IMG/VR virus record: IMGVR_UViG_3300043470_001109
Span: 1 to 28,324 of that record
Source: a virus
Direction: 5' to 3' (one strand)
Length of the DNA: 28,324 bases
The stretch's first letter is position 1. Every line of letters begins with the position of its first letter. This document shows, one piece after another, positions 937 to 19,220 of this stretch. The notes beneath the pieces were generated by a model, which saw only the letters and a list, made by a program, of their open reading frames with translations, made no database searches and was not told the DNA's origin. A program made the translations under genes and the position numbers.

Positions 937-937
937 T

Positions 938-1468
938 ATGATTACAGAACAAACAAATTCCGAAAATCCATCATTACATTGGAAATACATTAATTGCAAA
1001 GGACGAATTTCATTAGATTTAGGATGTGGCAGATGGGAAACTGTCGAGTATCGGGATCCAAATTGGCCTACGACACCAGAGTATTTGATTCAACAGGGAG
1101 CCACCGAGGTACACGCATTTGATATAGATTCGGCAGAAATCGATTGGTATACCACTAATATTACCCCAAAGATGGCAGTATTTCCCGAATGTATGGCTGT
1201 ACATACAGTAGAAGACATCAGGAGCATAATGAAAAAGTACGCTCCCAAAGCAATTAAATGTGATATTGAAGGTGCAGAACAAGTATTTTTAGAACTATCT
1301 GATGAAGAATTTTGCTCTATTGATCATTATGCACTTGAAACCCATTCAACTGCACTATATGATGCATTTGTGCAGCGGTTTAATGACCTAAACTATGAAA
1401 TCATAGCAGTAATCGATCTAGTACACGCTCCTCCAATGAAAGCAATTTTTGCAGAAAAGAAGAGATGA
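938..1468 (+). CDS. FkbM-type SAM-dependent methyltransferase
   Basis: A short class I methyltransferase of 176 residues. SAM motif I is L-D-L-G-C-G near residue 30, and a later I-K-C-D-I-E-G-A-E segment is the acidic motif typical of the FkbM family, which O-methylates sugars and other small acceptors. The upstream ATG at 929 would sit one base after the Shine-Dalgarno AGGGG (923-927), which is too close; the ATG at 938 has a 10-base spacer and is preferred. The stop overlaps the next gene by ATGA, indicating translational coupling. Expected to methylate a sugar hydroxyl made or transferred by the neighbouring enzymes. The family assignment rests on motifs only, and the acceptor is unknown. 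Confidence 0.78.
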   Translation: MITEQTNSENPSLHWKYINCKGRISLDLGCGRWETVEYRDPNWPTTPEYLIQQGATEVHAFDIDSAEIDWYTTNITPKMAVFPECMAVHTVEDIRSIMKKYAPKAIKCDIEGAEQVFLELSDEEFCSIDHYALETHSTALYDAFVQRFNDLNYEIIAVIDLVHAPPMKAIFAEKKR

Positions 1469-2541
1469 AAAGTAAAGTATTTGACAATCTATTCGTCTTG
1501 GAATTGGCAAACAATCATTGGGGTTCTCTTGAACGAGGCAAGCAAATTGTCCGAGAATTTGCCAAGGTTGTTCGGGACAATAAAGTGAAGGCTGCAATCA
1601 AGTTGCAGTTCAGAGATATAGATTCATTTGTCCACAAGGACTTCCAAACCGATGGAAGTGGCGTTGATCTGTCTACTTTGTCAAAGCGCAGTAGATATAT
1701 TCAAAAGACATCCAAGACAAAATTGACCTATAATGAGATGAAAGAATTGGTTGGCTACATCAAGAAGCACAACTGTATTCCGATGTCTACTCCATTTGAC
1801 GAGAAGTCCGTTGACTGGTGTGTAGAGATGAATCTACCAATCATCAAAGTTGCAAGTTCCGATATCAATGATTGGATTCTACTCAACAAGATTGCAGATA
1901 CAAAGAAACCAGTTATCCTCTCTACTGGTGGCGCAAACGATAAGCAGATAGATGATGTCGTAACATTCTTTACTAATAGAAAAATATCCATCGCCATAAA
2001 CCATTGCGTGTCAAAATACCCTAGCGAAGATAATGAACTAGAGTTGGATCAAATTGATTACTTGAAAGAGAAGTATCCCGATCTAACAATTGGTTTATCT
2101 ACGCATGAGTACCATGATTGGCACTCATCTATGTACATTTCCTATGCAAAGGGTGTACGAACTTGGGAGCGTCATATTGACATTCCATATCCTCCCGACC
2201 ACGAACAAAAGGAAGTTTCCAAGTATTGTTCATTACCGTATCAAGTTGATGAGTGGTTCAAGACTTTTAATCGCGCAAAGATCATGTGTGGTACTTCTAC
2301 TACGATGAGAAGAGTGATAGATGATAAGGAGACCAATTATTTGGAGGCTCTATATCGTGGTTTATATCTCAAGGAAGACTTGAAGAAGGGTACTAAAATC
2401 ACGCTTGACCATCTCTATAGTGCAATTCCTTATCAAAGGGAGATTGGGCATATCACTTCTCGTCAGTATTTTGACGGCGACTTTATATTGATTCGAGATC
2501 TCAAGAAGGATTCTCCTCTAACCAAGAACGACATTTCATAA
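1465..2541 (+). CDS. NeuB-family synthase (nonulosonic/sialic acid synthase-like) with C-terminal SAF domain
   Basis: 358 residues, the usual NeuB length. The N-terminal TIM-barrel landmarks are present in order: the glutamate in LELANNH, the lysine in IKLQ, S-T-P-F-D, K-V-A-S-S-D, L-S-T-G-G, H-C-V-S-x-Y-P, G-L-S-T-H-E and an E-R-H near residue 240. The last 65 or so residues form an SAF/antifreeze-like domain (YLKEDLKKGTKIT) that in NeuB closes over the partner subunit's active site. Family enzymes condense phosphoenolpyruvate with an N-acyl-hexosamine to give a nine-carbon acidic sugar. No CMP-sugar synthetase (NeuA) or hexosamine 2-epimerase (NeuC) is visible here; they may lie upstream. 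The substrate may differ from N-acetylmannosamine. It starts with an ATGA overlap, and the next gene begins 1 base after its stop. Confidence 0.85.
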   Translation: MKSKVFDNLFVLELANNHWGSLERGKQIVREFAKVVRDNKVKAAIKLQFRDIDSFVHKDFQTDGSGVDLSTLSKRSRYIQKTSKTKLTYNEMKELVGYIKKHNCIPMSTPFDEKSVDWCVEMNLPIIKVASSDINDWILLNKIADTKKPVILSTGGANDKQIDDVVTFFTNRKISIAINHCVSKYPSEDNELELDQIDYLKEKYPDLTIGLSTHEYHDWHSSMYISYAKGVRTWERHIDIPYPPDHEQKEVSKYCSLPYQVDEWFKTFNRAKIMCGTSTTMRRVIDDKETNYLEALYRGLYLKEDLKKGTKITLDHLYSAIPYQREIGHITSRQYFDGDFILIRDLKKDSPLTKNDIS

Positions 2542-2542
2542 T

Positions 2543-4279
2543 ATGAAGGTTGCTGATATTGTCATCAAGTTCCTAGAAAATAAGGGAATAGACACCACTT
2601 TTACCGTATCGGGTGGTGGATGTATTCATCTTATCGATGCGTTGCGGCGATCCAAAATGCAGGTTGTGTGTCCTCACCATGAGCAATCCGCTTTGATGGC
2701 AAGCGAAGGATACTATCGACAAGCAAATCGAATGGCTGCAAGTGTGGTAACTACAGGTCCGGGTGGTACAAATGCCATAACAGGATTATTGGGACTATGG
2801 TTAGATAGCATCCCGTCTATTATTATTTCAGGGCAAGTTCCTCGCAGCCAATTGTCGGCGGGAACTGGATGTAGGCAAATAGGCGATCAGGAATTTGACA
2901 TTGTTGGCATTGTGAAGTCAATGACAAAGTATGCTGTGATGGTTAACGATCCACTAGACATACTTTCCGAACTTGAAAAGGCATATCGGATTGCATTAGA
3001 AGGAAGACCTGGTCCGGTTTGGATCGACATTCCTTTGGATGTACAAGGTGCAAATATTAATCCTGATGAATGTCATATCTCAACCTACGATTTGCCTTCA
3101 TCAACTATCAACAGAGAACAAGTCGAACAACTTGTTTCTTTGTTGCAGTCCTCAAGTAAGCCCTTGATTATTGCTGGCAATGGGGTGCGATTGTCAGGTT
3201 GTTATGACAAACTCAATTCATTCTTAACTGCAACCGGTATACCTGTGGTTACTGGCCCGCATTCGGGTGTTGATGTAGTTGACAACACTCTTCCAAACTA
3301 CTGTGGAAGAATCGGCATTCTTGGTCAGATGACATCAAATCAAATTGTCCAAGAAGCAGATCTGTTGATTGGATTGGGAACACGATTGCCTGTTAAGATG
3401 ACGGGCTATAATGTAGCAGAGTTTTCACCGCTTTCTAAAAAAGTTATTGTTGACATAGATCCAAATGAAATAAACAAGCATAAGTTTAAGATTGATCTTC
3501 CTATAGTCGGAAATTTATCGAATTTGTTTGATCTCTTTGATGGTAGTAACTTGACTTTGAACATTTCGGAATGGCAGAGTCATGTATTGGAACTACGGAA
3601 GCAACAGAGATATTTCTATCCCAAGCATGAGGGGTTGAAAGAGTACGCTAGTTTATACTATCTAATGAACAAGGCACCAAAAATCTTTGGATCAACTCCC
3701 ATAGTCACAAGCAATGGAACCGCCCATGTAGTCACTTTGCAGACATATTGCCTCAATAAAGGACAAAGACTCTTCACAAATGTAGGGTGTGCCAGCATGG
3801 GTTATGGGTTACCCGCTGCAATAGGTGCTTGTATGGCTAACAAAAAGCAGCCAGTAATCTGTGTAGAGGGGGATGGGAGTTTAATGATGAATCTCCAAGA
3901 ATTGGAAACAGTTGTTGGATATAATCTTCCTTTGAAGATATTGGTTGTGAACAACGATGGTTATCTATCCATAAAACTTACACAGGAATCGTTCTTCAAT
4001 GGGGCTGAATTTGCAAGTAGCAAAACAACCGGAGTTACAATTCCTTGTTATGAAAAGGTAGCAACTGCTTTTGGACTACCATATATGAGTATTCGGTCTA
4101 ATGATGAAATTGAAAAAGTTCTATTAGGCATGATGGAAATGGACGGCCCTTGTTTTGTGGAGGTTTTCACGCATCCCAAAGAGAGACACGAACCAAAGGT
4201 AGTTCACAAGGGTATAGACAAGGATGGAAAAATTATTCCCGGCACCTTGACAGATATGTACATTTCTGATACCTTCTAA
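2543..4279 (+). CDS. Thiamin-diphosphate-dependent enzyme, acetolactate synthase-like
   Basis: 578 residues with the three-domain layout of the acetolactate synthase/benzoylformate decarboxylase superfamily. The ThDP-activating glutamate is E47 (in H-H-E-Q-S), followed by the T-T-G-P-G-G-T-N segment. A central domain follows (about 190-350). The cofactor motif G443-D-G-S446 through N470-N471 matches GDG-X(24-27)-NN. Acetolactate synthases join two 2-oxo acids, but paralogues in polysaccharide clusters and inositol catabolism (IolD-like) act on sugar-like or cyclitol substrates. Lying between a NeuB-like and a cyclase-like gene, and far from any branched-chain amino acid genes, this copy is more likely a glycan-pathway enzyme than an isoleucine/valine one. 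The exact reaction is unknown. Confidence 0.82.
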   Translation: MKVADIVIKFLENKGIDTTFTVSGGGCIHLIDALRRSKMQVVCPHHEQSALMASEGYYRQANRMAASVVTTGPGGTNAITGLLGLWLDSIPSIIISGQVPRSQLSAGTGCRQIGDQEFDIVGIVKSMTKYAVMVNDPLDILSELEKAYRIALEGRPGPVWIDIPLDVQGANINPDECHISTYDLPSSTINREQVEQLVSLLQSSSKPLIIAGNGVRLSGCYDKLNSFLTATGIPVVTGPHSGVDVVDNTLPNYCGRIGILGQMTSNQIVQEADLLIGLGTRLPVKMTGYNVAEFSPLSKKVIVDIDPNEINKHKFKIDLPIVGNLSNLFDLFDGSNLTLNISEWQSHVLELRKQQRYFYPKHEGLKEYASLYYLMNKAPKIFGSTPIVTSNGTAHVVTLQTYCLNKGQRLFTNVGCASMGYGLPAAIGACMANKKQPVICVEGDGSLMMNLQELETVVGYNLPLKILVVNNDGYLSIKLTQESFFNGAEFASSKTTGVTIPCYEKVATAFGLPYMSIRSNDEIEKVLLGMMEMDGPCFVEVFTHPKERHEPKVVHKGIDKDGKIIPGTLTDMYISDTF

Positions 4280-4295
4280 CTCATTGGGAGGTTTT

Positions 4296-4928
4296 ATGCG
4301 AGTATTTTTGACAGGTGGAAAAGGTGGAATAGGAACAGTAATACGCACAGCATTTGAGCGTAATGGAATGGAAGTAATTGCTCCCTCTTCGACAGAACTA
4401 GATTTAGGAAACAATTTTGATTGTTCATTATATCCAGAGGTAAATGGGCTTGTTCATTGTGCTGGTATCAATCTACTATCAAAGCATGACGAGATGGATC
4501 TTGATTCATTCTCTCGCCTATTTGCAATAAACACCATGAGTTTTGTATCGCTTTGCTCTAAACTGCGATTTGCCCCGCGTAGCAGCATAGTTGCTATTGG
4601 ATCTCTGTACGCAACAGAAACAAAAGAAGAACGCATTCAGTATGCCATGTCCAAACACGCTCTATATGCAGCAGTAAAGACAATAGCCTTGGAAAAAGCA
4701 AAGCAGCAGATCAAGGTAAACATGGTGTCTCCTGGATTTGTTGATACTCCTATGACAAGAAAGAACAACACAGAGGATAGGATTCGTTATCTTAACTCTA
4801 CTATCCCGTTGGGATTGGTAGATGCAGACCAGATTGCGTCTTTGTGCGTATACTTGCTGTCCATCAACACAGCAATTACGGGTCAAAACCTAATAGTTGA
4901 TGGTGGCTATTCGCTAAAGGGAGCATGA
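4296..4928 (+). CDS. Short-chain dehydrogenase/reductase (SDR)
   Basis: A classical SDR of 210 residues. The glycine-rich cofactor motif is TGGKGGIG at the N terminus, H-C-A-G replaces the usual N-N-A-G near residue 54, the catalytic tyrosine and lysine are in Y-A-M-S-K with an upstream serine in A-I-G-S, and the S-P-G-F-V-D-T-P segment follows the active site. The start was chosen at ATG 4296 because GGGAGG (4286-4291) sits 4 bases upstream; the TTG at 4284 lies before that ribosome site. It probably reduces or oxidises a sugar or cyclitol carbonyl with NAD(P)H. It lies directly between the ThDP enzyme and the cyclase-like gene and ends 1 base before the next start, which suggests the three act in sequence. 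Confidence 0.83.
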   Translation: MRVFLTGGKGGIGTVIRTAFERNGMEVIAPSSTELDLGNNFDCSLYPEVNGLVHCAGINLLSKHDEMDLDSFSRLFAINTMSFVSLCSKLRFAPRSSIVAIGSLYATETKEERIQYAMSKHALYAAVKTIALEKAKQQIKVNMVSPGFVDTPMTRKNNTEDRIRYLNSTIPLGLVDADQIASLCVYLLSINTAITGQNLIVDGGYSLKGA

Positions 4929-4929
4929 C

Positions 4930-5955
4930 ATGACTAATACATTTGTTATTGATGGAACAACATTTGCATTAGAAACCGAGCGTTCAAATGAACTGACAAT
5001 CCGTTCTCATCCTACGGATTACAAAGTAGTGTTTGAGCCGTTTGAAAACAAGTTCACCAATAACCAAGTTGTTTTAGTTGACAAGCGCGTAAGGGAACTC
5101 TATGGCATCTCTCATCACAAGTTGATAGAGGTGGAAGCCATTGAAGAAAACAAGAATATAGACACGGTTCTGCGTGTATGTGAACAGTTGTTGCAGTATG
5201 AGTTTGATAGAGGTCAAACTTTGATTGTCATCGGTGGTGGTATTGTGCAGGACATAGGAGCATATACCGCAAAGACATTCAAGAGAGGTATTGAATGGGT
5301 ATATGTACCTACTACCTTGCTTTCTCAATCCGACAGTTGTATTGGTGGAAAGACGGCATTGAATTTCAAGAACTATAAGAATCAGTTGGCTCTCTTCTCC
5401 GCACCAAAGAAAGTCGTGATTGATGTCTCTTTCTTAAAAACTCTGTCGGAACGCGATATGATTTCTGGCTATGGCGAAATCGCTAAGTTGTTTATTACCG
5501 GCGGCAGTTACTACATCAATAACTTTGATGCGTTTGATATTGAAACTACCATATACCACTCACTTTCAATCAAGAAAGCCATAGTCGAAGTGGATGAGTT
5601 TGAAATCCGAGAGAGGAAATCTCTGAACTATGGGCATTCGTTTGGTCACGCAATTGAGTCTGTGATGAACTATGAGATCCCTCACGGAGAAGCCGTGTTG
5701 CTAGGAATAGAGTTGATCAATCGCCTATTCACAAACTCCTCGCTGATAACGGATGTGGTTGAGAGGTTTACTTCTTTAAAACGATTAAAGAGGATTGATA
5801 TTGATGCCTTGATTCGCGCCTTGAAGACCGATAAAAAGATCTCAAATGGGATGATCACATTTGTAGTGACTCCATCTGTAGGCGAAACGGTGTTTGTTAG
5901 AAGTGCAATAAATGATGATGTCAAGGATAGAGTAAATGCGATACTTGCTGATTGA
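4930..5955 (+). CDS. Sugar-phosphate cyclase, 3-dehydroquinate synthase family
   Basis: 341 residues aligning by eye to the dehydroquinate synthase fold. The NAD-binding G-G-G-I-V-Q-D-I-G run is followed by P-T-T-L-L-S-Q-S-D-S and the G-G-K-T-A-x-N loop. The metal ligands would be E183 (in GEIAK), H236 (in GHSFGH) and H252 (in PHGEA). Family members turn a C7 sugar phosphate into a carbocycle: dehydroquinate, or valiolone/2-deoxy-inosose-type products. No other shikimate genes are present and the neighbours are glycan genes, so a cyclitol-forming role is as plausible as dehydroquinate synthesis. The arginine before the LNYGH segment is retained as in true dehydroquinate synthases, so motifs alone do not settle the substrate. 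Ribosome site AAGGGA lies upstream; the gene overlaps the kinase gene by 20 bases. Confidence 0.83.
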   Translation: MTNTFVIDGTTFALETERSNELTIRSHPTDYKVVFEPFENKFTNNQVVLVDKRVRELYGISHHKLIEVEAIEENKNIDTVLRVCEQLLQYEFDRGQTLIVIGGGIVQDIGAYTAKTFKRGIEWVYVPTTLLSQSDSCIGGKTALNFKNYKNQLALFSAPKKVVIDVSFLKTLSERDMISGYGEIAKLFITGGSYYINNFDAFDIETTIYHSLSIKKAIVEVDEFEIRERKSLNYGHSFGHAIESVMNYEIPHGEAVLLGIELINRLFTNSSLITDVVERFTSLKRLKRIDIDALIRALKTDKKISNGMITFVVTPSVGETVFVRSAINDDVKDRVNAILAD

Positions 5956-6883
5956 TTTTGGAGCATCGTTTATAAAGACGATGATCTATGACAGTTCTGA
6001 TGATAAGCATGGAAACATGGTATCTACGGTATCTCCATTTCAGGGAAGCAATATCATTTCCAAGTGTGATTTGTTTCGGATTCTTGAAGAGATTGTTGAA
6101 CAGCATCTTCCTGTCGAAGCAATCGTGGTGTGCAGTATTCTTGGGGGAGGATGGATTGGCGACACATACTATTCTTGGAAATCCATCGTTGCTGCTCCAA
6201 AGAAGTATTGTCTGATAGGCGGATTATTTGCAGATGAACCAACCTATCATCTGCATTGTCATCATGGGGGTGATGTTGATAGACTTCTACCTATTGGTTT
6301 TGTGAAGGGGGTGGTGGTTTATAGTCCTCTTGGTGATACAAACTGCGTAGTTGAATCATTGGATCTACAGGAAGATGAGTATGTAATTAACATTGGTACT
6401 GGGTCACAAGTAATACACAGAACCGAATCGGGCATCAATATTGTTAAATTTTTTCCCGCAGGAAGAGCCTTTCTAGTGTTTGAAAAATTCTTTGCTGCAT
6501 TTGGTGTTGATTTCTTTGAGCAGTTGGATAGAATCACAGAACAGCAAGTCTACGATAGCAATCTGACTGTGGATCTGAATGTGTTTCCGCAAGCCAAAGA
6601 CTTTTTAGGTGGCGGCTCCATTCAAGGTATTCTTGAAGAAGGATTCACGCTTACAAATCTATTGGGATCTATTCTTCGGTGTTTTGTATTGCAGTATGCA
6701 TCTCATCTGATTTTGCCAACAAAGACCAAGATTCGTTTGGTTGGAGGTATACCAAATAAACTTCCAATTTTGAAACAACTTTTTTCGCACTACTATACGG
6801 GTAAATTAATTATGATCAGTAATTCCACCGTATCAAATACTCATGTGGGCATGATCAAACTAATTGGGAGATATTTGCCATGA
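5936..6883 (+). CDS. FGGY-like carbohydrate kinase (actin-like ATPase fold)
   Basis: 315 residues, shorter than the roughly 500 usual for FGGY kinases. The phosphate-1 motif is LIDFGASFIKTMIYD at the N terminus, the phosphate-2 motif is N-I-G-T-G-S-Q near residue 152, and an adenosine-type glycine motif V-G-G-I-P-N-K lies near residue 272. This is the ASKHA arrangement of sugar kinases. The start ATG has AAGGA (5923-5927) 8 bases upstream and overlaps the cyclase gene. A plausible role is phosphorylating a free sugar or cyclitol, for example making a sedulose-type C7 phosphate for the neighbouring cyclase, but this is inference. Compression of the second lobe makes the fine family uncertain; a ROK or BadF-type enzyme is the main alternative. 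Confidence 0.68.
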   Translation: MRYLLIDFGASFIKTMIYDSSDDKHGNMVSTVSPFQGSNIISKCDLFRILEEIVEQHLPVEAIVVCSILGGGWIGDTYYSWKSIVAAPKKYCLIGGLFADEPTYHLHCHHGGDVDRLLPIGFVKGVVVYSPLGDTNCVVESLDLQEDEYVINIGTGSQVIHRTESGINIVKFFPAGRAFLVFEKFFAAFGVDFFEQLDRITEQQVYDSNLTVDLNVFPQAKDFLGGGSIQGILEEGFTLTNLLGSILRCFVLQYASHLILPTKTKIRLVGGIPNKLPILKQLFSHYYTGKLIMISNSTVSNTHVGMIKLIGRYLP

Positions 6884-7665
6884 AGGTATTAATTACAGGT
6901 GGTAATGGTTACATTGCTTCAAGTCTAAACCGAGGGTTGAATTCATCACACGACATTACCAATATCACTAGATTGAATTTTGATCTTACTGATTCAGTAG
7001 AAGTCAAAAAGTGGTTTCAAGGTAAATGGTTTGATGTGGTTATTCATACGGCAATAGTAGGAGGAAGCCGTCTACAGACAGAGGATGAACGAGTGATAAG
7101 ACAGAACCTTCTGATGCACTACAACTTATTGGCTAACAGAAATAGTTTTGGAAGATTTATAACCTTTGGTTCCGGTGCCGAAACATTTGCTCCCGATACT
7201 CCATATGGTATAAGTAAACGAATTATTGCGGACTCTATACAGGCAACAGCCAACTGGTACAACTTACGCATATTTGCGGTGTTTGATGAAAACGAATTGA
7301 ATACCCGTTTCATTAAGGGAAACTTAATACGGTATTTGAGAAAGGAGCCAATGCTGATACATTCAAATAGATTGATGGATTTCTTCTATATGAAAGACTT
7401 GGTTTCTTTGGTTGATCACTATCTTATGACAGATAGCCCCTCTAAAGAAGTAAATTGCTCATATGCCGACAAATATACCCTCACTAATATCGCGGCTATG
7501 ATCAATGAGTTAGGAACACATAAAGTTCCAATTATAGTAGAAGAAGTTGGAAAGTTGGGAGTTTATTGTGGGGATGGCGAATCTCTACCAATAAATACCA
7601 TAGGATTACGAACAGGCATCCGCGAAACATACAAGGCTTTGTTAAAAGAAGAGCATACATTATGA
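6880..7665 (+). CDS. NAD-dependent epimerase/dehydratase (extended SDR), short form
   Basis: 261 residues. The N-terminal cofactor motif is TGGNGYIA; the active-site Y-x-x-x-K is Y-G-I-S-K near residue 108, preceded by F-G-S-G-A-E in place of the usual S-S-x-x-V-Y. Family members act on NDP-sugars as 4-epimerases, 4,6-dehydratases or reductases. It is shorter than typical UDP-glucose 4-epimerases (about 330), having lost part of the substrate domain, which suggests a reductase or epimerase on a particular nucleotide sugar. It is joined to the kinase gene and the following glycosyltransferase gene by ATGA overlaps at both ends. Confidence 0.78.
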   Translation: MKVLITGGNGYIASSLNRGLNSSHDITNITRLNFDLTDSVEVKKWFQGKWFDVVIHTAIVGGSRLQTEDERVIRQNLLMHYNLLANRNSFGRFITFGSGAETFAPDTPYGISKRIIADSIQATANWYNLRIFAVFDENELNTRFIKGNLIRYLRKEPMLIHSNRLMDFFYMKDLVSLVDHYLMTDSPSKEVNCSYADKYTLTNIAAMINELGTHKVPIIVEEVGKLGVYCGDGESLPINTIGLRTGIRETYKALLKEEHTL

Positions 7666-8453
7666 AGATTCCCTCATATAGCATTACCATCCAAACTTAT
7701 GTCCATCGGTTTGAACCATACTTCAAACCCCTCTTGGCAAGAGTACACAAACAAAGACCTAATGTAGAGAAGGTTGTTTTTGTCAACGGACAGCACAAAG
7801 AAAAGTTTGACGAAAACTATCGTAGAGAGATGCTTCAGTACGCATCGTATTTTTCGAATACCTTTCTGTTGATGTCTCCCATCGTGCGTGGGTGTGCGTT
7901 CATGTGGAACAACTCAATCAACTATACAAGTGGGGAATATGTGCTTGTATTAAGCGATGATGTAATTGTTCTTGATGGATTTTTTGATGATTTTGAAAAT
8001 ATGTTGGCACACAATCACCAATTAGGTGACGAATCATTTAGAATCAATACTCATTGGGGACATTTTTGTATGTATCGAAAAGACCTTATAGATGTAGAAA
8101 AAATTGGATTTTTTGATGAGAGGCTTGTTGGATTCGGAGAAGAAGATTATGATTGGATGTGGAGATATCAAAATCTTCACAATAAACATATGCGTAATTA
8201 TGGCACCAATAAGATGCCATACAATACTGATGATGCGTGTCTTCCTGGTAAAAATACAAGAACCCACAGCAATAGTAAGTATAGTGCATTCAATCGTGAG
8301 TTTATGGAAAGCAAGATGGAACCTGATCCAACTGGTACAAATGATGGGTGTGGAATTTCTAGAGGGTTTGCACAAAAAACAATACCAGGAATGGAGACAC
8401 CTAATTTCTATCCTGGCGAAACTTGGTATAGAAGCAACATACAGAAACTTTGA
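7662..8453 (+). CDS. Glycosyltransferase, GT-A-like
   Basis: 263 residues counted from ATG 7662, which overlaps the previous stop as ATGA; an in-frame extension upstream lies wholly inside the preceding gene and is rejected. A strand with S-D-D-V near residue 105 gives the DXD metal site, and G-F-G-E-E-D-Y-D near residue 160 resembles the acidic 'ED' motif of GT2-like enzymes that holds the catalytic base. The N terminus (ITIQTYVHRFE) is a typical GT-A first strand. The C-terminal 60 residues are asparagine- and glycine-rich and do not look like membrane segments, so the enzyme is probably cytoplasmic. Donor and acceptor are unknown. Together with the gene at the left edge, the cluster encodes at least two different transferases. 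Confidence 0.72.
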   Translation: MKIPSYSITIQTYVHRFEPYFKPLLARVHKQRPNVEKVVFVNGQHKEKFDENYRREMLQYASYFSNTFLLMSPIVRGCAFMWNNSINYTSGEYVLVLSDDVIVLDGFFDDFENMLAHNHQLGDESFRINTHWGHFCMYRKDLIDVEKIGFFDERLVGFGEEDYDWMWRYQNLHNKHMRNYGTNKMPYNTDDACLPGKNTRTHSNSKYSAFNREFMESKMEPDPTGTNDGCGISRGFAQKTIPGMETPNFYPGETWYRSNIQKL

Positions 8454-8461
8454 AAACTGTT

Positions 8462-9334
8462 ATGAACAACAATAATAAAATATCAGTCTATGGGGGATCA
8501 GGCTTTATTGGAAGTTCCTTTCTATCGGCGTTTCCATCACAAACAATACAGATACCAAGAGATCAAAATACACCAATGTCCGATGAGGTGCTATATTTTA
8601 TCAGTACAAACCACAACTACCATGTATTTGATAATCCACACCTAGACATTGATACCAATTTAACCAAGTTGATTGATGTATTAGAGGCTTGTAAAAATAG
8701 TAGTAGAACCTGCACATTTAACTTTATTAGTTCTTGGTTTGTATATGGAAAAAAGAATAAGTTTCCTGTCATGGAAACAGATGAATGTCATCCTGAAGGA
8801 TTCTACTCAATCACAAAATATGCAGCAGAAAGATTGTTGGTATCATACTGTGATACCTTTAAGATGAAGTATCGTATTCTTCGTTTGACTAATATCATTG
8901 GAGAAAATGCAACAGAAGTATCAATCAAAAGAAATGCCTTGCAGTATTTGATTGAAACTTTATTCGATAACAAAGAAGTAAAATTATACAATGATGGATC
9001 GGATATGCGAGATTTTATGCATATCATAGATGCTTGTCGGGCTATTATGAAATGCATTGAAAATGCTTCAATCGGAGAAACCATTAATATCAGTAATTCA
9101 GATCCTCATACCATAGGAGAACTTGTTCGTTACGCTCAAAAACGCATGGGAGGTAATGGCAAGATTATTAGCGTGGAACCTCCGGATTTTCATAAGGTAG
9201 TTCAGAGCAAAGATATGCATTTAGACAATATCAAGTTATTATCGTATGGATACGCTCCTTCTATCAATACATATGATGCAGTAGATCGAATAGTAAATTA
9301 TATTATGGAAAGAAAAATACAAAATGTATCGTGA
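8462..9334 (+). CDS. NAD-dependent epimerase/dehydratase (extended SDR)
   Basis: 290 residues from ATG 8462. A TTG at 8450 overlapping the previous stop gives four more residues and is a possible coupled start; neither has a strong ribosome site. The cofactor motif is GGSGFIG; the active site shows F-I-S-S-W-F-V-Y-G and Y-S-I-T-K (Y-x-x-x-K). A C-terminal N-I-S-N-S-D segment matches the 'NvgsG' nucleotide-sugar loop of UDP-glucose 4-epimerase-like proteins. Probably an epimerase or reductase on an NDP-sugar. It is the second of three extended SDRs in the cluster, and their sequences clearly differ, so they are not recent duplicates. Confidence 0.8.
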   Translation: MNNNNKISVYGGSGFIGSSFLSAFPSQTIQIPRDQNTPMSDEVLYFISTNHNYHVFDNPHLDIDTNLTKLIDVLEACKNSSRTCTFNFISSWFVYGKKNKFPVMETDECHPEGFYSITKYAAERLLVSYCDTFKMKYRILRLTNIIGENATEVSIKRNALQYLIETLFDNKEVKLYNDGSDMRDFMHIIDACRAIMKCIENASIGETINISNSDPHTIGELVRYAQKRMGGNGKIISVEPPDFHKVVQSKDMHLDNIKLLSYGYAPSINTYDAVDRIVNYIMERKIQNVS

Positions 9335-9563
9335 AACAAAAACAAGAAGTTGGACAAAATCAATATTGTGGAGGGTAATCGCAACCGCAAACAGTTTTGC
9401 TATTTTGACTTCTGCTTTAACAGATAAACCCTTGACTAACGCAATCTATATGAACATAACAGGTCTGTTTATTTACTACTTTTACGAAAGAATATGGAAT
9501 TATATTTTTTGGGGTAAAGTAAAGGTAACAACAAAAAATCTAGAACAAGAAAAGGATAATTAA
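9324..9563 (+). CDS. DUF2061 small membrane protein
   Basis: 79 residues. The N-terminal R-S-W-T-K-S-I-L-W-R-V-I-A-T run and the C-terminal Y-Y-F-Y-E-R-I-W-N-Y-I-F-W-G run match the two conserved ends of DUF2061, with two predicted membrane helices between (about residues 15-32 and 40-58). The family's function is not established; members occur next to nucleotide-sugar and sulfate-activation genes, including in phages. It overlaps the upstream epimerase by 11 bases and ends 1 base before the next gene, so it belongs to this operon. In context it may anchor or assist a membrane step of glycan assembly, which is inference. Confidence 0.8.
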   Translation: MYRETKTRSWTKSILWRVIATANSFAILTSALTDKPLTNAIYMNITGLFIYYFYERIWNYIFWGKVKVTTKNLEQEKDN

Positions 9564-9564
9564 A

Positions 9565-10536
9565 ATGAATAAAGTTATGATTGTAGGCGGTGCGGGATAC
9601 ATTGGAACTCTACTTTCAACTAAACTACATGAACGCGGATATGATGTTCGTGTAGTAGATCTTATGTGGTTTGGTAATAATCTACCGCAAGTACTGAAAG
9701 AGAAGGCAAAGGTTGCTGATGTGTTTGACCTAACGCAGAAAGATCTTGAGGGATTTGATTCGGTTGTCTTTGTTGCTGGACTTTCCAACGATCCTATGGC
9801 TGACTATTCGCCAGCGAAGAACTTTATTTCTAACTCCGCTAGCCCTGCTTACCTTGCTTATATTGCAAAGAAAGCAGGAGTGAAGCGTATGGTATATGCT
9901 AGTAGTTGCTCTGTTTATGGATATGCAGTTGATCAGTTTTATGATGAGACTGGCCCTACTACAGCAGTCTATCCATATGGTATCTCTAAGTTACAGGGAG
10001 AGAAGTCAGTACTGCAATTGGCAGATGATTCATTCTCAGTAATTGCTTTTAGAAAAGGTACAGTATCGGGAGTAAGTCCTCGTATGCGATTTGACCTAGT
10101 GGTCAATGCTATGTTCAAGACTGCAATGTCTACGGGAACAATTACCATGAGTAATCCTGCAATTTGGAGACCCATCTTGTCCATCAGGGATTGTGTTTCT
10201 GCTTACATCCGAGCAATTGAATGTGATCCTACGATCTCTGGTGTTTTCAATGTTGCTTCGGATAACTGCACTATTGGACAGATTGCTGATATTGTAAAAA
10301 ATACAATAGAAGCCACCACAAAAACAAATTTAAAAATTATTAACAATAATGTTAAGGATGTTCGCAACTATAAGGTTAATTGTGATAAAGCAAAGACGGT
10401 TTTAGGATTCTCACCTACCTGTGGGGTGAAGCAGATTGTCCAAGATTTATTAGATAATAGAGAGATTTTTGGTGACATGGACAACCCTGCGTATTACAAT
10501 ATCAAGACCTTTATTGGAATGGAGCAACCAACATGA
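9565..10536 (+). CDS. NAD-dependent epimerase/reductase (extended SDR, UDP-glucose 4-epimerase-like)
   Basis: 323 residues, a full-length extended SDR. Cofactor motif VGGAGYIGT; active site A-S-S-C-S-V-Y-G and Y-P-Y-G-I-S-K; an R-P-I-L-S-I-R-D segment matches the conserved 'R..i.V.D' of the substrate domain, followed by N-V-A-S-D-N. It overlaps the RfbH-type dehydrase gene by ATGA, so the two are probably made together. In 3,6-dideoxyhexose pathways the dehydrase product is reduced or epimerised by proteins of this family (RfbS/RfbJ/TyvB-like), so this is the best candidate partner. The precise product is unknown. Confidence 0.82.
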   Translation: MNKVMIVGGAGYIGTLLSTKLHERGYDVRVVDLMWFGNNLPQVLKEKAKVADVFDLTQKDLEGFDSVVFVAGLSNDPMADYSPAKNFISNSASPAYLAYIAKKAGVKRMVYASSCSVYGYAVDQFYDETGPTTAVYPYGISKLQGEKSVLQLADDSFSVIAFRKGTVSGVSPRMRFDLVVNAMFKTAMSTGTITMSNPAIWRPILSIRDCVSAYIRAIECDPTISGVFNVASDNCTIGQIADIVKNTIEATTKTNLKIINNNVKDVRNYKVNCDKAKTVLGFSPTCGVKQIVQDLLDNREIFGDMDNPAYYNIKTFIGMEQPT

Positions 10537-11867
10537 TGGACATCAGTATTGACAATAAGAACAAGCAACTACAGGAACTTGTTAAGGATCGCTTAACAGC
10601 AAACAAGAAGAAGTGGATACCTGGCGAGAGTTGGGTACAGTATGCAGGAAACTACTTTACAGAAGATGAGTATGTTGCTGCTATTGATTGTCTACTTGGA
10701 GGATGGCTTGCTCTTGGTGAGAATGGATTTAGATTTGAACGAAACTTTCGAAGCCGCCTTGGCAAGGATCACGGTGCGCTTGTAAATAGTGGATCAAGTG
10801 CAAATCTTCTTATGGTATCTGCTTTAAAGTCCAAAAGACTATTTGGATTCAAGCCAGGAACAAAAATCATTACACCCGTAGCGGGGTTTCCAACCACAAT
10901 CAATCCCATCATTCAAAATGGGTTTGAGCCGGTATTTGTTGATATTGAGTTGGATACTTTGAATCTAAATGTAGATCAAGTAGAGGAAGCCGCAAAGCAG
11001 GGAGCAAAGGCTCTTATATTTGCCCATGTATTAGGCAATTGTCCAAATATGGATCAAATTATGGATATCGTAAAGCGTTACGATTTGATTCTTCTTGAAG
11101 ATTGTTGTGATGCACTTGGAACTACTTACGATGGCAAGTTGCTTGGTAGTTTTGGTACATTTGCATCTTGCTCATTTTATCCCGCTCATCACATCACTCT
11201 AGGCGAGGGTGGATTTGTTGCTTGCCAAACAGAGGAACAGAATATCGTAGTGAAGAGTTTACGCGAATGGGGAAGAGGCTGCTACTGTTATGGTGCTGCT
11301 GCGTCTTGTCTAAAGAATGGGATGTGCAAGAAGAGGTTTAGTAATTGGTTGCCAAGTCTTCCCGATGAAGTGTTTGACCACAAATTTGTTTATGAGGAAA
11401 TTGGATATAATCTAAAGCCCCTAGATCTACAGGCTGCTATAGGTCTTGTTCAACTTGAAAAATTAGATGAGATTATTGCTATCCGTAAACACAATTATGC
11501 TCGTCTGTTTGATGTATTTGCAAAGTATGAGAATTATTTCCATATGCCACGCGCAAATGCAAAGACAAATCCGTCTTGGTTTGCATTCCCATTAACCGTT
11601 CGTGATGATGCACCATTTAAGCGCAAAGATTTAACTATGTTCTTGGAGAACAGTAAAATTCAGACAAGAAATTATTTTGCAGGTAACATTTTGTTACAAC
11701 CTGGCTATTCTGAAGTAGCACCTCATATTGATGCAAAGAAGCAATTTCCTGTTGCAACAAAGGTAACAACAGATACCTTCTTCTTGGGCGTAAGTCCAGT
11801 CATTACTGACGAGCAACTTGATTATGTTGGTAAAACTGTAGATTCCTTCTTTGAAAGCAGAAAATAA
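10533..11867 (+). CDS. rfbH: RfbH/E1-type NDP-4-keto-6-deoxyhexose 3-dehydrase (PMP/PLP and [2Fe-2S])
   Basis: 444 residues of the DegT/DnrJ/EryC1/StrS fold. The usual PLP lysine is replaced: the segment reads Y-P-A-H219-H220-I-T-L-G-E-G-G, with histidine where aminotransferases have lysine. This is the signature of E1/RfbH and ColD dehydrases, in which His220 of Yersinia E1 is the reported active-site base. Iron-sulfur ligands fit the E1 pattern: C192-X57-C250-X1-C252, then C259 (X6, against X7 recalled for E1) or C265. The enzyme removes the C3 hydroxyl of a CDP- or GDP-4-keto-6-deoxy sugar on the way to 3,6-dideoxyhexoses. No E3 reductase (RfbI-like) is visible. ATG 10533 overlaps the upstream stop; ATG 10536 is an alternative. 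Last gene of the glycan run. Confidence 0.88.
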   Translation: MMDISIDNKNKQLQELVKDRLTANKKKWIPGESWVQYAGNYFTEDEYVAAIDCLLGGWLALGENGFRFERNFRSRLGKDHGALVNSGSSANLLMVSALKSKRLFGFKPGTKIITPVAGFPTTINPIIQNGFEPVFVDIELDTLNLNVDQVEEAAKQGAKALIFAHVLGNCPNMDQIMDIVKRYDLILLEDCCDALGTTYDGKLLGSFGTFASCSFYPAHHITLGEGGFVACQTEEQNIVVKSLREWGRGCYCYGAAASCLKNGMCKKRFSNWLPSLPDEVFDHKFVYEEIGYNLKPLDLQAAIGLVQLEKLDEIIAIRKHNYARLFDVFAKYENYFHMPRANAKTNPSWFAFPLTVRDDAPFKRKDLTMFLENSKIQTRNYFAGNILLQPGYSEVAPHIDAKKQFPVATKVTTDTFFLGVSPVITDEQLDYVGKTVDSFFESRK

Positions 11868-14471: not shown

Positions 14472-14545
14472 GGGACGAGGGGGTCTTTGGTTGGCCCAGA
14501 TGAGTTTATACCTCTTCGGCACAGGTTCGATTCCTGATCGTCCTA
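14472..14545 (+). tRNA. tRNA-Ile-like, anticodon UAU (no encoded CCA)
   Basis: A cloverleaf can be drawn by hand. The acceptor pairs GGGACGA with TCGTCCT (one G-U). The D arm is GGGT/GCCC with GG in the loop. The anticodon stem is ATGAG/CTCTT with one T-T mismatch around loop TTTATAC, giving anticodon TAT. A 4-base variable loop follows. The T arm is ACAGG-TTCGATT-CCTGA, with a mismatch at its base. The discriminator is A, followed by CTCG rather than CCA. Length is 74. G at position 8 is unusual. UAU would read the AUA isoleucine codon, which is frequent in this A/T-rich sequence. Confidence 0.58.
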
Positions 14546-14586
14546 CTCGCAACTACTTACACTATTAACTTTTTAGGGAGATTATT

Positions 14587-15017: not shown

Positions 15018-15048
15018 ACAACCCCCCTTATACGGGGGTTGTTTCTTT
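15018..15048 (+). terminator. Rho-independent terminator
   Basis: The 9-bp stem ACAACCCCC (15018-15026) pairs with GGGGGTTGT (15034-15042) around a 7-base loop and is followed by TTCTTT. It ends the helicase-region unit before the late genes. Confidence 0.85.
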
Positions 15049-15069: not shown

Positions 15070-15076
15070 CTAAATA
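15070..15076 (+). promoter_or_regulatory. Late-promoter-like CTAAATA, 5 bases before an ATG
   Basis: CTAAATA differs from the T4 late consensus only at its first bases. In T4 the start site lies about 6-7 bases after the motif, which here is at ATG 15082-15084, implying a leaderless message if that ATG is used. Confidence 0.55.
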
Positions 15077-15081
15077 CCGTG

Positions 15082-16347
15082 ATGATAGTCAACTTTTCGA
15101 GTCTGATTACCCAACCACAACGAGTCTGCCCCATGAACGAGGCGGTGGAGACTCAACACCTTGAGCATATTGAAGATTTGATGTTAAAAGATTTGGATAA
15201 TGGTATATCCAATTCCATGTTGCTAATGACCAATATTGCCAAGTCCTTGGCTAGCAGTACCCCAACCGCCAAAATGGTCATTACGACAAAATGGGATGGC
15301 GCACCTGCTATCGTGGCAGGTAAACACCCATCAAACAATGAGTTCTTTGTTGCTCTAAAACACGCAACGACCTCCAAGAATCCAAAGATAAACTTTACAG
15401 CAAAAGATATTAAGACCAATCACGGCGATAATGCTGACCTACTAAGCAAACTCACCCTTTGCTTGGAATATTTACCTTCGGTACTTCCTTCCACGGGAGT
15501 CTACCAAGGCGATCTGATGTTTAGCACCAACTCTAGAAAAGAGATGGATATTGATGGAGTTAAGAACTTTGTATTCCGTCCGAATACTATCCTCTATGCA
15601 GTTCCTGTTGGTTCACCTCTAGGCAAAAAGATAGGTGCTGCTAAGTTAGGAATTGTGTTCCATACGGTATATACAGGCAAGTCTGATACCTTGCAGGGAA
15701 TGAATAAAGGAACGCTTGCTTCTTTGGATGGATTTAAGCAGACAACGAATGTATGGTTTTCTTCAGCCACTCTTCCTTCGCCTCCAACAGGTAAGACATT
15801 CATTACTGCAAGCGATTCTTCACAAATAACGGCACTTCTTAAATTAATGAAACCTTTGGCTCCCAAGACCAAGTCATTCATCAAGATCGTATTCAAGTCG
15901 CATAAGACTGATATCTTTGATGAACTAACACCTTTTATAAATTCAGGTGTCAGAGCAGGAATTTCAAAGTACGATTCCTCTAAATTGAAAACGCATATCG
16001 CTTCAAAATATGACTTGGCAATTGCTAAACTAAAGCAAGCAAAGAATCAAGAACTGAAGCAAAAGGCGAAGATAGATGCATTAAAGTTTATTGATGCCTA
16101 TGCTTCTCAATTCGATCAGATGTTTCAACTGCACTCTCTTATTAGCGAGGCAAAACTCATAATCATCAAAAGACTTTCCGAAGTCAAGACTATTGGAACT
16201 TACCTACCTACAACTACTGGTATCAAGGCAACGAATCCTGAAGGCTTTGTTGCTGTTTGTGGTGATACCTGTCAGATGATTAAATTGGTAGATCGTATTG
16301 AGTTCGCACAGGCAAACTTTAACCTAGCCAAGGATTGGAAGTTATGA
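15082..16347 (+). CDS. KxDG nucleotidyltransferase-like protein (RNA/DNA ligase-fold candidate, DUF6267-like)
   Basis: 421 residues from ATG 15082; a later ATG at 15133 is possible and starts just before the conserved-looking Q-H-L-E-H-I-E-D. The key segment is T-T-K70-W-D-G73-A-P-A, which fits the K-x-D-G motif I lysine of covalent nucleotidyltransferases (ligases, capping enzymes). Further on are G-V-Y-Q-G-D-L near 139-145 and, at the C terminus, P-E387-G-F-V followed by I-K401-L-V-D-R, matching motifs IV and V. I recall such proteins in T4-like cyanophages annotated only as an uncharacterised family (DUF6267, recalled not checked). It would charge the lysine with AMP and seal or cap a nucleic acid or other substrate. 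It overlaps the following multidomain gene by ATGA. Confidence 0.7.
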   Translation: MIVNFSSLITQPQRVCPMNEAVETQHLEHIEDLMLKDLDNGISNSMLLMTNIAKSLASSTPTAKMVITTKWDGAPAIVAGKHPSNNEFFVALKHATTSKNPKINFTAKDIKTNHGDNADLLSKLTLCLEYLPSVLPSTGVYQGDLMFSTNSRKEMDIDGVKNFVFRPNTILYAVPVGSPLGKKIGAAKLGIVFHTVYTGKSDTLQGMNKGTLASLDGFKQTTNVWFSSATLPSPPTGKTFITASDSSQITALLKLMKPLAPKTKSFIKIVFKSHKTDIFDELTPFINSGVRAGISKYDSSKLKTHIASKYDLAIAKLKQAKNQELKQKAKIDALKFIDAYASQFDQMFQLHSLISEAKLIIIKRLSEVKTIGTYLPTTTGIKATNPEGFVAVCGDTCQMIKLVDRIEFAQANFNLAKDWKL

Positions 16348-19220
16348 AGACCTTTTTAGAAGCAACAAAAAGTAAGAAACCCGCAAAGAAGTCTGTAGTC
16401 TTTGCATATGGTCGCATGAACCCGCCCACCACAGGTCATGGAGTTCTTGTAAAGAAGGTTATCGATGAGGCAAGTTCTCGCGGAGCAGATCACTTTATCT
16501 TTGTTTCTAAGTCACAAGAGCCAAAAAAGAATCCACTCACGCACACACAAAAGGTATCCTATCTTCGTAAGTTGTTCCCACAGGGCAACTTTCCGCTGAA
16601 CAAAGCAGTAAACCCATACGAGGCTGTTCTGTATCTGTGCGACTTGGGATACACCGATATCACCATGATTGCAGGAAGTGATCAGGTTGAAAACTTCAAA
16701 AGCATTGTGAACTACAAGGGTAAGATTGCAGAGAAAGATCCTAAGAAGCGCAAGTATTCCTTTGATACTTTCAATGTTGTTCAGGCAGGAGAAGAGCGCG
16801 TAGAGAAGATTACTCTCGCAGACATTGATAAGATGCTAAAGAAAGGCAAGACAGTCGATCCAATGTATATGTCGGCATCTCTCATGCGGGCTGCTGCATT
16901 CGCCAAGCGTTTCGATATATTTGCTATCGGCATTCCTGGTAACAAGACTCTAGCCAAACAACTTTACAATGATGTTCGAAAGGGCATGGCACTCAACGAA
17001 GAATATATTCCAGAAGCCAAGGATGATCCAACGGACAAGGTTACCATTCTTGCTCTTACTTCATCAGATAAAGACTTGAGTGATACTATTGAGAAGATGC
17101 AGGAAATCTGCAAAAGGCGTAAGATTGAATTCTATGCTGTTAAAACTTCCAAAGCACAAATTGATATTTCGAATGTGATTGCCAACAAGATTGTAATTAA
17201 GAACTACGATGGTGAAGGAAAAGATATAGCAATTGTTCCTGGCGATACTGTAGCAATTGTTCGTGGTGGTGTAATGAATACCGACATCGGTGTTGCTATT
17301 ATGACTATCTTGCAGAATAATGGCGTATTCATGATTAATGAGCGTGGAGGAATGGAACTCTGTGCAAATAAGTTAGAAACTGCTATTGCTCTAAAGAAGC
17401 ATAATCTTCCACATCCTCGCACCGCTTTTGTTGCGGCTGAAGAGAATATTGAAACTGCTGTTAAAGAGATTGGTGGCAAGTTCCCTGTTATTGTGAAGAC
17501 TCTCACAGGTGCTGAAGGCATCGGCGTTTCCAAGATTGAAAGCATGGAGAGCCTGAAGTCTGTATTGCAAACCTTGTGGAAATATGGCGCAGAGATCATT
17601 ATGCAAGAGTTCTTGCCTGATTTCAAGAACGATGTTCGCAGCATCTGTCTGAATGGCAAGATATTTGCCTGTGCCAAGCGAGACAAGGCTCCTAAGGATT
17701 TCCGTACAAACATTGCTCGTGGTTCAAAGGGTGGCGCATTCCAACTTTCTGATGAAGAAATCAAGTTGGTAGAGGAAGCCGCTCGGGTCAGTAAGTGCTA
17801 CTTTGTTGGAGTCGATCATGTAATTAATGATGGCAAACCATACATCATTGAAATGAATGCAAGTCCAGGTAGCGGCAATATCTACTACCGCTATTACGAG
17901 GATGGCAAGGGCAAGAATAATGTTAAGGGCGAAGAACTTGTAGAAGATTTTGTCAATTACATTCTTGTCAAGACGCATTGGAAGTTATTCTCTAATCTAG
18001 CCGTGCGTGAGAATATTACAATTGAAGGTGTAGACTACCATGCCAAAATTGATACAGGCAATAGTGGCTATAACATGATTCATGCAGATGAAATTAAGGA
18101 TAACGGCAATCATACGGTTACCTTTACCTTGCCAAACGGTAAGAGAATCACAAAGAAGATTGTCAGTCGCTTGGTGGTAAAGAGTGGAATTGGTAAGAAA
18201 AAGCGCATGGTTGTGTTGATGGACATCGTATTCCGTGGAAAGAAATACCCAAACATCAAGTTCAGTATTGGTGATCGGGCGCATATGAGCAGCAAAGTTC
18301 TTCTTGGCTTACAGTTCCTAAGCAAAACTGGCATGGTCGTTGATCCTGCACTTGCCATCTATCCTCAGAATAATACTGATGGACAAAAGGATACAGGTGA
18401 GGAAGAAGAAGAAGTCAAGGAAGCCTTCAAGACTAAAAAGAAGTCAAAGTACACTCAACTTTTTGCCGAGAAGTTTGGCGATAAGAAGGAACAGGTTGCC
18501 GAAATGGTCAATACTTTGATAGGAATCGAAGGATCAACAATGACCATATCGGAAAAGATTGAGAAGGCTCGTCTGTTGCAGTCCAAGGCTACTTCGAAAG
18601 AACTCAAGGAAACTTGCAATATCTACATCGAAGCAATGAAGGCAGAAATGTATGAGCCGTATGCAAACATTCAAACTACGCTTGATGAGGACTTTGAATG
18701 GATGTTGATCAATATGGTTCCTGTTAAAACTGCAACTCGTAGACTTCAATCACAGATCAAGGAATATCGATTACAAGGAACCGATGATATCGTTCATGCC
18801 TATTCCAAGATGACACCTGGTCAGAAGCAATACACCGCTGAAGATAAAGACAAAGAGCAACAAGAGAAAGATGAACTGTACAAGCAATGGAAAGGGTTAG
18901 TAAACATGGGCCCAAAGGAATTGCAAACATTCATCGACTCTGATCATGGTGAAAAGGCAGGACTTTCTCGCAAAGAAGCATCAAAGGCAGGAGCCAAAGG
19001 CAAGCCAATCAAAACTGGTAGAGATTCTGCCCGTGCTGTTGTTCGCATGAAAGGTATGAGCAAGGATAAATGGACTGCCAATGATTGGGCTTGGGCAAGA
19101 CGGCAAGTAAACTTCATAACTAGAATGAAGGGAGCCGCAGGAAAGATGCGTGAATCTGATGGTTCTCCTACTCGTAAACTTATGGCTCTTAAGATTTGGG
19201 GTCATAATCCAGAAAATTAA
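16344..19220 (+). CDS. Four-part fusion: nucleotidyltransferase + RimK-like ATP-grasp + retropepsin-like domain + C-terminal phage domain
   Basis: 958 residues from ATG 16344 (coupled by ATGA). Residues 17-190 are a cytidylyltransferase/NMNAT-like domain: G-R-M-N-P-P-T-T-G-H32 carries the (H/T)xGH motif and S177-A-S-L-M-R182 the ISSTxxR-like motif. Residues about 225-540 are an ATP-grasp ligase: V-I-V-K385-T-L-T-G-A-E-G-I-G is the ATP loop, D-V-R-S follows, and I-I-E503-M-N505-A-S-P-G binds metal, as in RimK glutamate ligases. Residues about 550-690 carry A-K-I-D570-T-G-N-S, the active-site motif of the retropepsin-like RimB/'ATP-dependent zinc protease' family that pairs with RimK. An acidic-lysine linker leads to a C-terminal domain (about 850-958) ending R-K-L-M-A-L-K-I-W-G-H-N-P. 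Substrates are unknown. The fusion is intact. Confidence 0.85.
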   Translation: MKTFLEATKSKKPAKKSVVFAYGRMNPPTTGHGVLVKKVIDEASSRGADHFIFVSKSQEPKKNPLTHTQKVSYLRKLFPQGNFPLNKAVNPYEAVLYLCDLGYTDITMIAGSDQVENFKSIVNYKGKIAEKDPKKRKYSFDTFNVVQAGEERVEKITLADIDKMLKKGKTVDPMYMSASLMRAAAFAKRFDIFAIGIPGNKTLAKQLYNDVRKGMALNEEYIPEAKDDPTDKVTILALTSSDKDLSDTIEKMQEICKRRKIEFYAVKTSKAQIDISNVIANKIVIKNYDGEGKDIAIVPGDTVAIVRGGVMNTDIGVAIMTILQNNGVFMINERGGMELCANKLETAIALKKHNLPHPRTAFVAAEENIETAVKEIGGKFPVIVKTLTGAEGIGVSKIESMESLKSVLQTLWKYGAEIIMQEFLPDFKNDVRSICLNGKIFACAKRDKAPKDFRTNIARGSKGGAFQLSDEEIKLVEEAARVSKCYFVGVDHVINDGKPYIIEMNASPGSGNIYYRYYEDGKGKNNVKGEELVEDFVNYILVKTHWKLFSNLAVRENITIEGVDYHAKIDTGNSGYNMIHADEIKDNGNHTVTFTLPNGKRITKKIVSRLVVKSGIGKKKRMVVLMDIVFRGKKYPNIKFSIGDRAHMSSKVLLGLQFLSKTGMVVDPALAIYPQNNTDGQKDTGEEEEEVKEAFKTKKKSKYTQLFAEKFGDKKEQVAEMVNTLIGIEGSTMTISEKIEKARLLQSKATSKELKETCNIYIEAMKAEMYEPYANIQTTLDEDFEWMLINMVPVKTATRRLQSQIKEYRLQGTDDIVHAYSKMTPGQKQYTAEDKDKEQQEKDELYKQWKGLVNMGPKELQTFIDSDHGEKAGLSRKEASKAGAKGKPIKTGRDSARAVVRMKGMSKDKWTANDWAWARRQVNFITRMKGAAGKMRESDGSPTRKLMALKIWGHNPEN

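Follow-up and report, generated by a model that had tools for sequence, protein, structure and literature searches.

DUF6267 as a Candidate Divergent Ligase

The window analyzed here, a 28.3-kb virus record (IMGVR_UViG_3300043470_001109), harbors two overlapping genes that encode a protein of the family DUF6267 followed by a fusion protein beginning with a predicted adenylyltransferase domain. DUF6267 has the appearance of a DNA/RNA-ligase-type enzyme in disguise. Judged by its modeled fold and invariant residues, it is probably a divergent polynucleotide ligase of the lysyl-AMP type, acting on DNA or RNA, with an adenylyltransferase as its partner. Computation yielded the family assignment, the ligase-type fold, the invariant motifs, the partnership with its fusion, and the lack of recognized ligases in most carriers. 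Databases already contain both families, labeled "unknown function" and "cytidyltransferase"; DUF6267 may represent a divergent branch of the ligase superfamily, unusual in its fixed partner. A literature search, in which subscription journals and preprints were not covered, retrieved no paper naming DUF6267 or identifying the family as a ligase. Few marine viruses are as abundant as T4-like cyanophages, and DUF6267, a "hypothetical protein" in about 470 phage records, is now a concrete and testable candidate ligase. If it seals ends, this new branch, with its unusual fixed partner, could possibly provide a useful reagent, and the "cytidyltransferase" label on the partner would be corrected. 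The gene pair is organized as follows:

15082..16347, + strand: DUF6267 gene, 421 amino acids (aa), translation from ATG15082 (PF19782, E 5.7e-91)
16344..19220, + strand: fusion gene, 958 aa, adenylyltransferase + RimK-like ATP-grasp + RimB-like retropepsin + C-terminal domain
16344..16347, + strand: ATGA start-stop overlap of the two genes, the upstream TGA being 16345-16347

The overlap had been described in an earlier note made from the letters of this DNA, and was confirmed. The upstream protein matched PF19782, a family without assigned function, over profile positions 2-376 of 376 with 306 bits (curated cut-off 27), and also phrog_455, annotated as "unknown function." An alternative start of its gene, GTG15079, is also possible; the N-terminal M-I-x-N-F of the protein is common to its relatives.

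Conserved Motifs of DUF6267

DUF6267 genes were gathered from phage genomes, viral contigs, and genome contigs, and 105 of them were aligned; no relative was found in the plasmids searched. The earlier note had read K70-W-D-G, E387-G-F-V, and K401-L-V-D-R as motifs I, IV, and V of a covalent nucleotidyltransferase. Their numbering proved exact in the 421-aa translation, and their order and spacing were conserved across the 105 relatives, motifs I and III being separated by 67-75 residues and IV and V by 11-15. Eight residues, K70, D72, G73, K93, D144, N168, H194, and K358, were invariant in 105/105, and no relative lacking K70 was found. E387, G388, and K401 were retained in 104/105, the single exception being a gap, and R405 in 103/105, a degree of conservation that chance would not produce. 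To the motifs already proposed, the present analysis added the family name, a motif III carboxylate (D144), and a motif IIIa-like segment (F165...Y172). The features of the protein are:

15157..15177, + strand: N-terminal segment H26-L-E-H-I-E-D32; H26, H29, E31, and D32 nearly invariant
15289..15300, + strand: motif I, K70-W-D-G(-A), predicted AMP-accepting lysine; K, D, and G in 105/105
15511..15513, + strand: motif III-like D144 in Q-G-D; 105/105, Glu in T4 Rnl2 and NgrRnl
15574..15597, + strand: motif IIIa-like F165-x-P-N-T-I-x-Y172; F165 in 102/105, N168 and Y172 invariant
15808..16176, + strand: four-helix block, aa 243-365, between motifs IIIa and IV, from the predicted structure
16240..16251, + strand: motif IV, E387-G-F-V; E and G in 104/105
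16282..16296, + strand: motif V, K401-L-V-D-R405; K in 104/105, R in 103/105

Position 403 within motif V is occupied by V in 95/105 relatives and by I in 9/105, and does not match the K-x-K of Rnl2-type RNA ligases. The helical block of ~120 residues is mostly absent from short natural variants (L024-L026), in which the motifs are retained.

Predicted Fold and Comparison With Known Ligases

The AlphaFold model of DUF6267, built from 105 sequences, had a mean predicted local distance difference test (pLDDT) score of 91.7 and a predicted template modeling (pTM) score of 0.89. In the model, K70 lies at the end of a strand, D144 inside strand 140-148, and E387 and K401 at or beside the last two strands. 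Structural comparison with VIA-align listed 50 matches, all of which were RNA or DNA ligases (Z 5.8-8.4), and the alignments begin near the H26-D32 segment (model residue 23). The best match was the Naegleria RNA ligase NgrRnl (Z 8.4, 185 residues, 3.8 Å), followed among others by trypanosome RNA editing ligase 1 (TbREL1; Z 8.0, 196 residues), T4 Rnl2 (Z 7.6, 177 residues), human Lig1 (Z 6.7), and T4 Rnl1 (Z 6.1); a Z of about 8 is modest and close to the level about which the aligner warns. The weak matches returned by Foldseek also include NAD+-ligase adenylation domains and RNA ligases. The ligase-like core anticipated in the earlier note is present in the predicted structure. DUF6267 was placed in the ligase superfamily because all the listed fold matches belong to this one superfamily and its catalytic residues are the invariant ones.

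The catalytic residues of NgrRnl are K170, D172, E227, E312, and K326 (PMC9931718). Matched by order, these are comparable to K70, D72, D144, E387, and K401 of DUF6267, and the spacing between motifs IV and V is 14 in both proteins. The human protein C12orf29 is a standalone nucleotidyltransferase domain with the motif KX(D/H/N)G, whose AlphaFold model gave a DALI Z of 7.4 to NgrRnl and which, without an oligonucleotide-binding (OB) domain, then proved to be an RNA ligase (PMC9931718). DUF6267 shares with both proteins the nucleotidyltransferase core and K-x-D-G; like C12orf29, it lacks the OB domain and was recognized by the same route, an AlphaFold model and a structural match to NgrRnl. However, its identity to these proteins is only ~11%, Asp replaces Glu in motif III, a ~120-residue helical insertion precedes motif IV, and it has a fixed adenylyltransferase partner. 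With T4 Rnl2 and TbREL1 (PF09414) the core fold (Z 7.6 and 8.0) and a similar spacing of motifs III and IIIa are shared, whereas DUF6267 does not match PF09414, was negative when its profile was compared to that of the T4 Rnl2 clade, ends without a C-terminal domain beyond motif V, and has KLV instead of KxK. T4 gp30 and the ATP-dependent DNA ligases (PF01068) have in common with DUF6267 the superfamily core, motifs I, III, IV, and V and, possibly, a role in replication, but differ from it in their OB domain and motif VI, and no PF01068 match was obtained. DUF6267 was filed neither as an Rnl2-type RNA ligase nor as a DNA ligase because of its departures from the motifs, the lack of an OB domain, and the lack of a sequence link.

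Association With an Adenylyltransferase Partner

The domain that constantly accompanies DUF6267 lies at the N-terminus of the downstream protein:

16386..17003, + strand: nicotinamide mononucleotide/phosphopantetheine adenylyltransferase (NMNAT/PPAT)-type domain, aa 15-220, from fold and motifs

This domain matched phrog_3041/395 and carries G31-H32 of (T/H)xGH, G111-S-D113, and S177-x-x-x-x-R182. Its AlphaFold model (pLDDT 91.1) had NadD enzymes as the best Foldseek matches, and the highest VIA-align Z values were 12.8 (PPAT) and 11.9 (NMNAT). Although it resembles NadD, NMNAT, and PPAT in fold and in all three motifs, its matches to the NCBIfam NMNAT/PPAT models fell far below the curated cut-offs, none of which was reached. 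The partner is NMNAT/PPAT-type in its modeled fold and is predicted to be an adenylyltransferase; the "cytidyltransferase" label in phage records is an annotation habit without evidence.

The earlier note had suggested looking for conserved co-occurrence of the two genes, and this was found to be general. The partner was present in 21/21 whole DUF6267 records searched, and DUF6267 in 32/37 viral contigs chosen by the partner alone, most of which are fragments. In S-SSM6a and RN05-S, the two genes lie at distant positions in the genome, and in S-PM2 (LN828717) they form a single 591-aa frame. The phage collection contained 471 records with DUF6267 and 523 with the partner, distributed almost identically over organisms; jumbo phages are among the partner-only records listed.

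In the other S-PM2 record, NC_006820, the frame is split into two genes (L022:3980-5777), while it is open in LN828717 (L146:2498-4273), a spontaneous deletion mutant of S-PM2; the discrepancy is either a sequencing error or a real difference. An uncharacterized gene of ~385-485 aa was also observed directly 5' of DUF6267 in several cyanophages (L018:2544-4001, L024:1759-2931, and L027:1835-2986), belonging to phrog_1462 in L018 and L024. It is a possible third member of the module.

Ligase Census and Genomic Context in Phages

DUF6267 is carried by nearly all T4-like cyanophages, usually beside DNA polymerase, uvsX, the gp41 helicase, and MazG. A 2010 review described cyanomyoviruses as lacking the T4 g30 DNA ligase, and considered either unidentified distant homologues or a true lack, the latter being judged likelier (PMC2984593). 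DUF6267 is a candidate for this missing homologue.

Eighteen complete phage records were surveyed for ligases, 14 of them carriers of DUF6267 and four non-carriers. The RNA ligase families PF09414/PF09511 were found in 0/14 carriers vs. 3/4 non-carriers, namely T4, CBB, and SCTP-2, each of which has both families. The DNA ligase family PF01068 was found in 2/14 carriers (S-CRM01 and DLP_6) vs. 4/4 non-carriers, and PF01653 in none of the 18 records. By Fisher's test, calculated by hand, each of the two splits would be unlikely to arise by chance (~0.005) within this 18-record sample, which is confounded by descent as the carriers are nearly all Kyanoviridae.

Proposed Function and Alternative Explanations

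We infer that DUF6267 would act as a divergent covalent (lysyl-AMP) nucleotidyltransferase with a fold closest to those of NgrRnl, TbREL1, and T4 Rnl2. K70 would be adenylylated from ATP, or possibly NAD+, with D72, D144, and E387 as putative metal/nucleotide ligands and K401 contacting phosphate. Transfer of this AMP to a 5'-phosphate end would follow, with the enzyme sealing a nick or break in the phage nucleic acid. DUF6267 would work together with the NMNAT/PPAT-type adenylyltransferase, whether the two genes are adjacent, apart in the genome, or fused, and this partner may supply nucleotide or NAD+ or activate the substrate. In T4-like cyanophages and their relatives, DUF6267 would stand where T4 has gp30, Rnl1, and Rnl2. 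A specific form of this mechanism, which is very doubtful, is a self-recycling NAD+-driven ligase, in which DUF6267 would take AMP from NAD+ and release nicotinamide mononucleotide (NMN), and the partner would remake NAD+ from NMN and ATP. If true, the pair would be a new kind of ligase, supplying an activity that cyanophages seemed to lack.

Several observations in addition to the modest Z scores weigh against a polynucleotide ligase. Foldseek of the DUF6267 model against the PDB gave no significant E-value. Sequence comparisons established no sequence-level link to ligase families: hmmscan against Pfam, PHROGs, and NCBIfam linked the protein to none of them, phmmer and hmmsearch of PDB sequences returned no ligase match, and hhalign against an alignment of the T4 Rnl2 clade was negative, though this alignment is narrow and the negative a weak one. 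The chain contains neither an OB fold nor motif VI, only 20 residues following K401, and its motif V reads KLV, not KxK. As for the census, besides its confounding by descent, S-CRM01 and DLP_6 carry both DUF6267 and a DNA ligase, and a simple replacement of gp30 is weakened both by these two phages and by the missing OB domain. The end-healing phosphatase PNKP and RlaP were searched for in the carriers and were absent, which speaks against a role in tRNA repair and also weakens a canonical RNA-repair set of PNKP, RlaP, and ligase.

Capping and AMPylating enzymes have the same fold as ligases, and it is conceivable, if rather unlikely, that DUF6267 seals nothing and instead adenylylates or caps its target (a small molecule, a protein, or a 5' end), the partner making or removing the activated group. 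The missing OB fold, motif VI, and KxK would fit such a transfer. The presence of two adenylyl-transferring folds in one polypeptide suggests a dedicated metabolite pathway, and protein-modifying domains (SET, ATP-grasp) occur on the partner open reading frames. Nevertheless, every listed nearest fold is a polynucleotide ligase and none a capping enzyme, and the location in the replication cluster together with the missing canonical ligases is consistent with end joining. The NadD/NMNAT/PPAT folds that best match the partner could instead point to NAD+ supply or counter-defense, with an NMNAT-like enzyme rebuilding NAD+ after a host NADase defense and DUF6267 as a helper using or sensing the nucleotide; HIGH-type NMN adenylyltransferases do occur in the NAD+ systems of jumbo phages (PMC7824862). 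This explanation is quite improbable, as the neighborhoods fetched contained no annotated gene for NAMPT or another NAD+ pathway enzyme, the partner family has diverged from true NMNATs and scores far below the curated cut-offs, and the invariant ligase motifs of DUF6267 are left unexplained.

An alternative in which DUF6267 has a structural or regulatory role, its KxDG-like motifs and ligase-like fold having arisen by convergence, would agree with the lack of a significant sequence or Foldseek match. It is extremely unlikely, however, given that the invariance is concentrated on the catalytic positions of the superfamily in the correct order, that every listed fold match is a ligase, and that short variants lose the helical block while keeping the motifs.

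Add-On Domains of the Downstream Protein

Beyond the adenylyltransferase, the 958-aa protein contains the following features:

17088..17888, + strand: RimK-like ATP-grasp, aa 249-515 (TIGR00768, E 5e-41), a lineage-specific add-on
18009..18356, + strand: RimB/RloA3-like retropepsin, aa 556-671, with a catalytic-type D-T-G at aa 570-572
18399..18413, + strand: polyglutamate linker EEEEE, aa 686-690, between the retropepsin and the C-terminal domain
19092..19199, + strand: C-terminal segment with weak similarity to DUF6321 (score under the curated cut-off)

The retropepsin matched PF05618 with 32.8 bits (cut-off 27) and the NCBIfam models RimB and RloA3 below their equivalog cut-offs; the C-terminal region is also weakly similar to DUF3140. 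ATP-grasp was found in 16/143 loci and the retropepsin in 11/143, mostly close relatives of the window, and this occurrence ruled both out as core parts. Of the two-gene ligation system proposed in the earlier note, the coupling of DUF6267 to the nucleotidyltransferase was borne out, whereas the participation of ATP-grasp and retropepsin in the ligation chemistry was not. Its suggestion that three enzymes side by side modify an end does not extend to a general system, since other domains take their place elsewhere. The adenylyltransferase is there fused to SET, a zeta/AAA_33 kinase, a pol-beta-type nucleotidyltransferase, or DUF5824 (SET, kinase, and pol-beta fusions in loci L052:2126-7528, L047:8600-12028, L045:7907-10711, and L044:2512-5148), and the partner protein serves as a scaffold for varying domains. 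Of these, the kinase and the pol-beta domain are reminiscent of RNA-repair sets.

In its ATP-grasp and DTG-retropepsin half, the downstream protein is similar to the RimBK hybrid of an ATP-grasp glutamate ligase and a RimB retropepsin. The order nevertheless differs, RimK preceding RimB after the adenylyltransferase in the window, whereas RimB comes first in Desulfotalea RimBK (PMC11957791). In most relatives (the window, L005, L006, L008, L009, L031, L153, and L154), the RimB-like retropepsin is followed by 4-7 consecutive glutamates, which are absent in L011. As RimB cleaves an internal 8-glutamate linker (PMC11957791), self-processing within this region (window 18051-18413, aa 570-690), releasing the C-terminal domain, is possible by analogy.

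Surroundings of the Gene Pair

The gene pair is located among replication genes: a gp41-type helicase is encoded on its upstream side, and genes for a DnaG-type primase and thymidylate synthase follow on the downstream side. Two putative signals precede it:

15023..15048, + strand: terminator-like hairpin CCCCC-TTATAC-GGGGG, then the T-rich tail TTGTTTCTTT; consensus match only
15070..15076, + strand: CTAAATA upstream of the DUF6267 gene; motif match

The hairpin would separate the pair from the upstream genes, although the total of terminator-like sites in the region was not above that of shuffled sequence. CTAAATA resembles the late-promoter motif of T4-like cyanophages. It occurs five times in the window, a total not above chance, always on the + strand (15070, 19927, 20265, 25287, and 26731), and four of the five copies lie 12-46 bases 5' of a gene start; these copies are possible late promoters. 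Just upstream of the pair, a tRNA-Ile with anticodon TAT was observed at 14472-14546. Farther upstream (79-11867) lies a run of genes that by eye resemble sugar/glycan metabolism, unusually many for a phage, including a NeuB-like synthase, a thiamine-dependent enzyme, a dehydroquinate-synthase-like protein, several NAD-dependent epimerases, and an aminotransferase.

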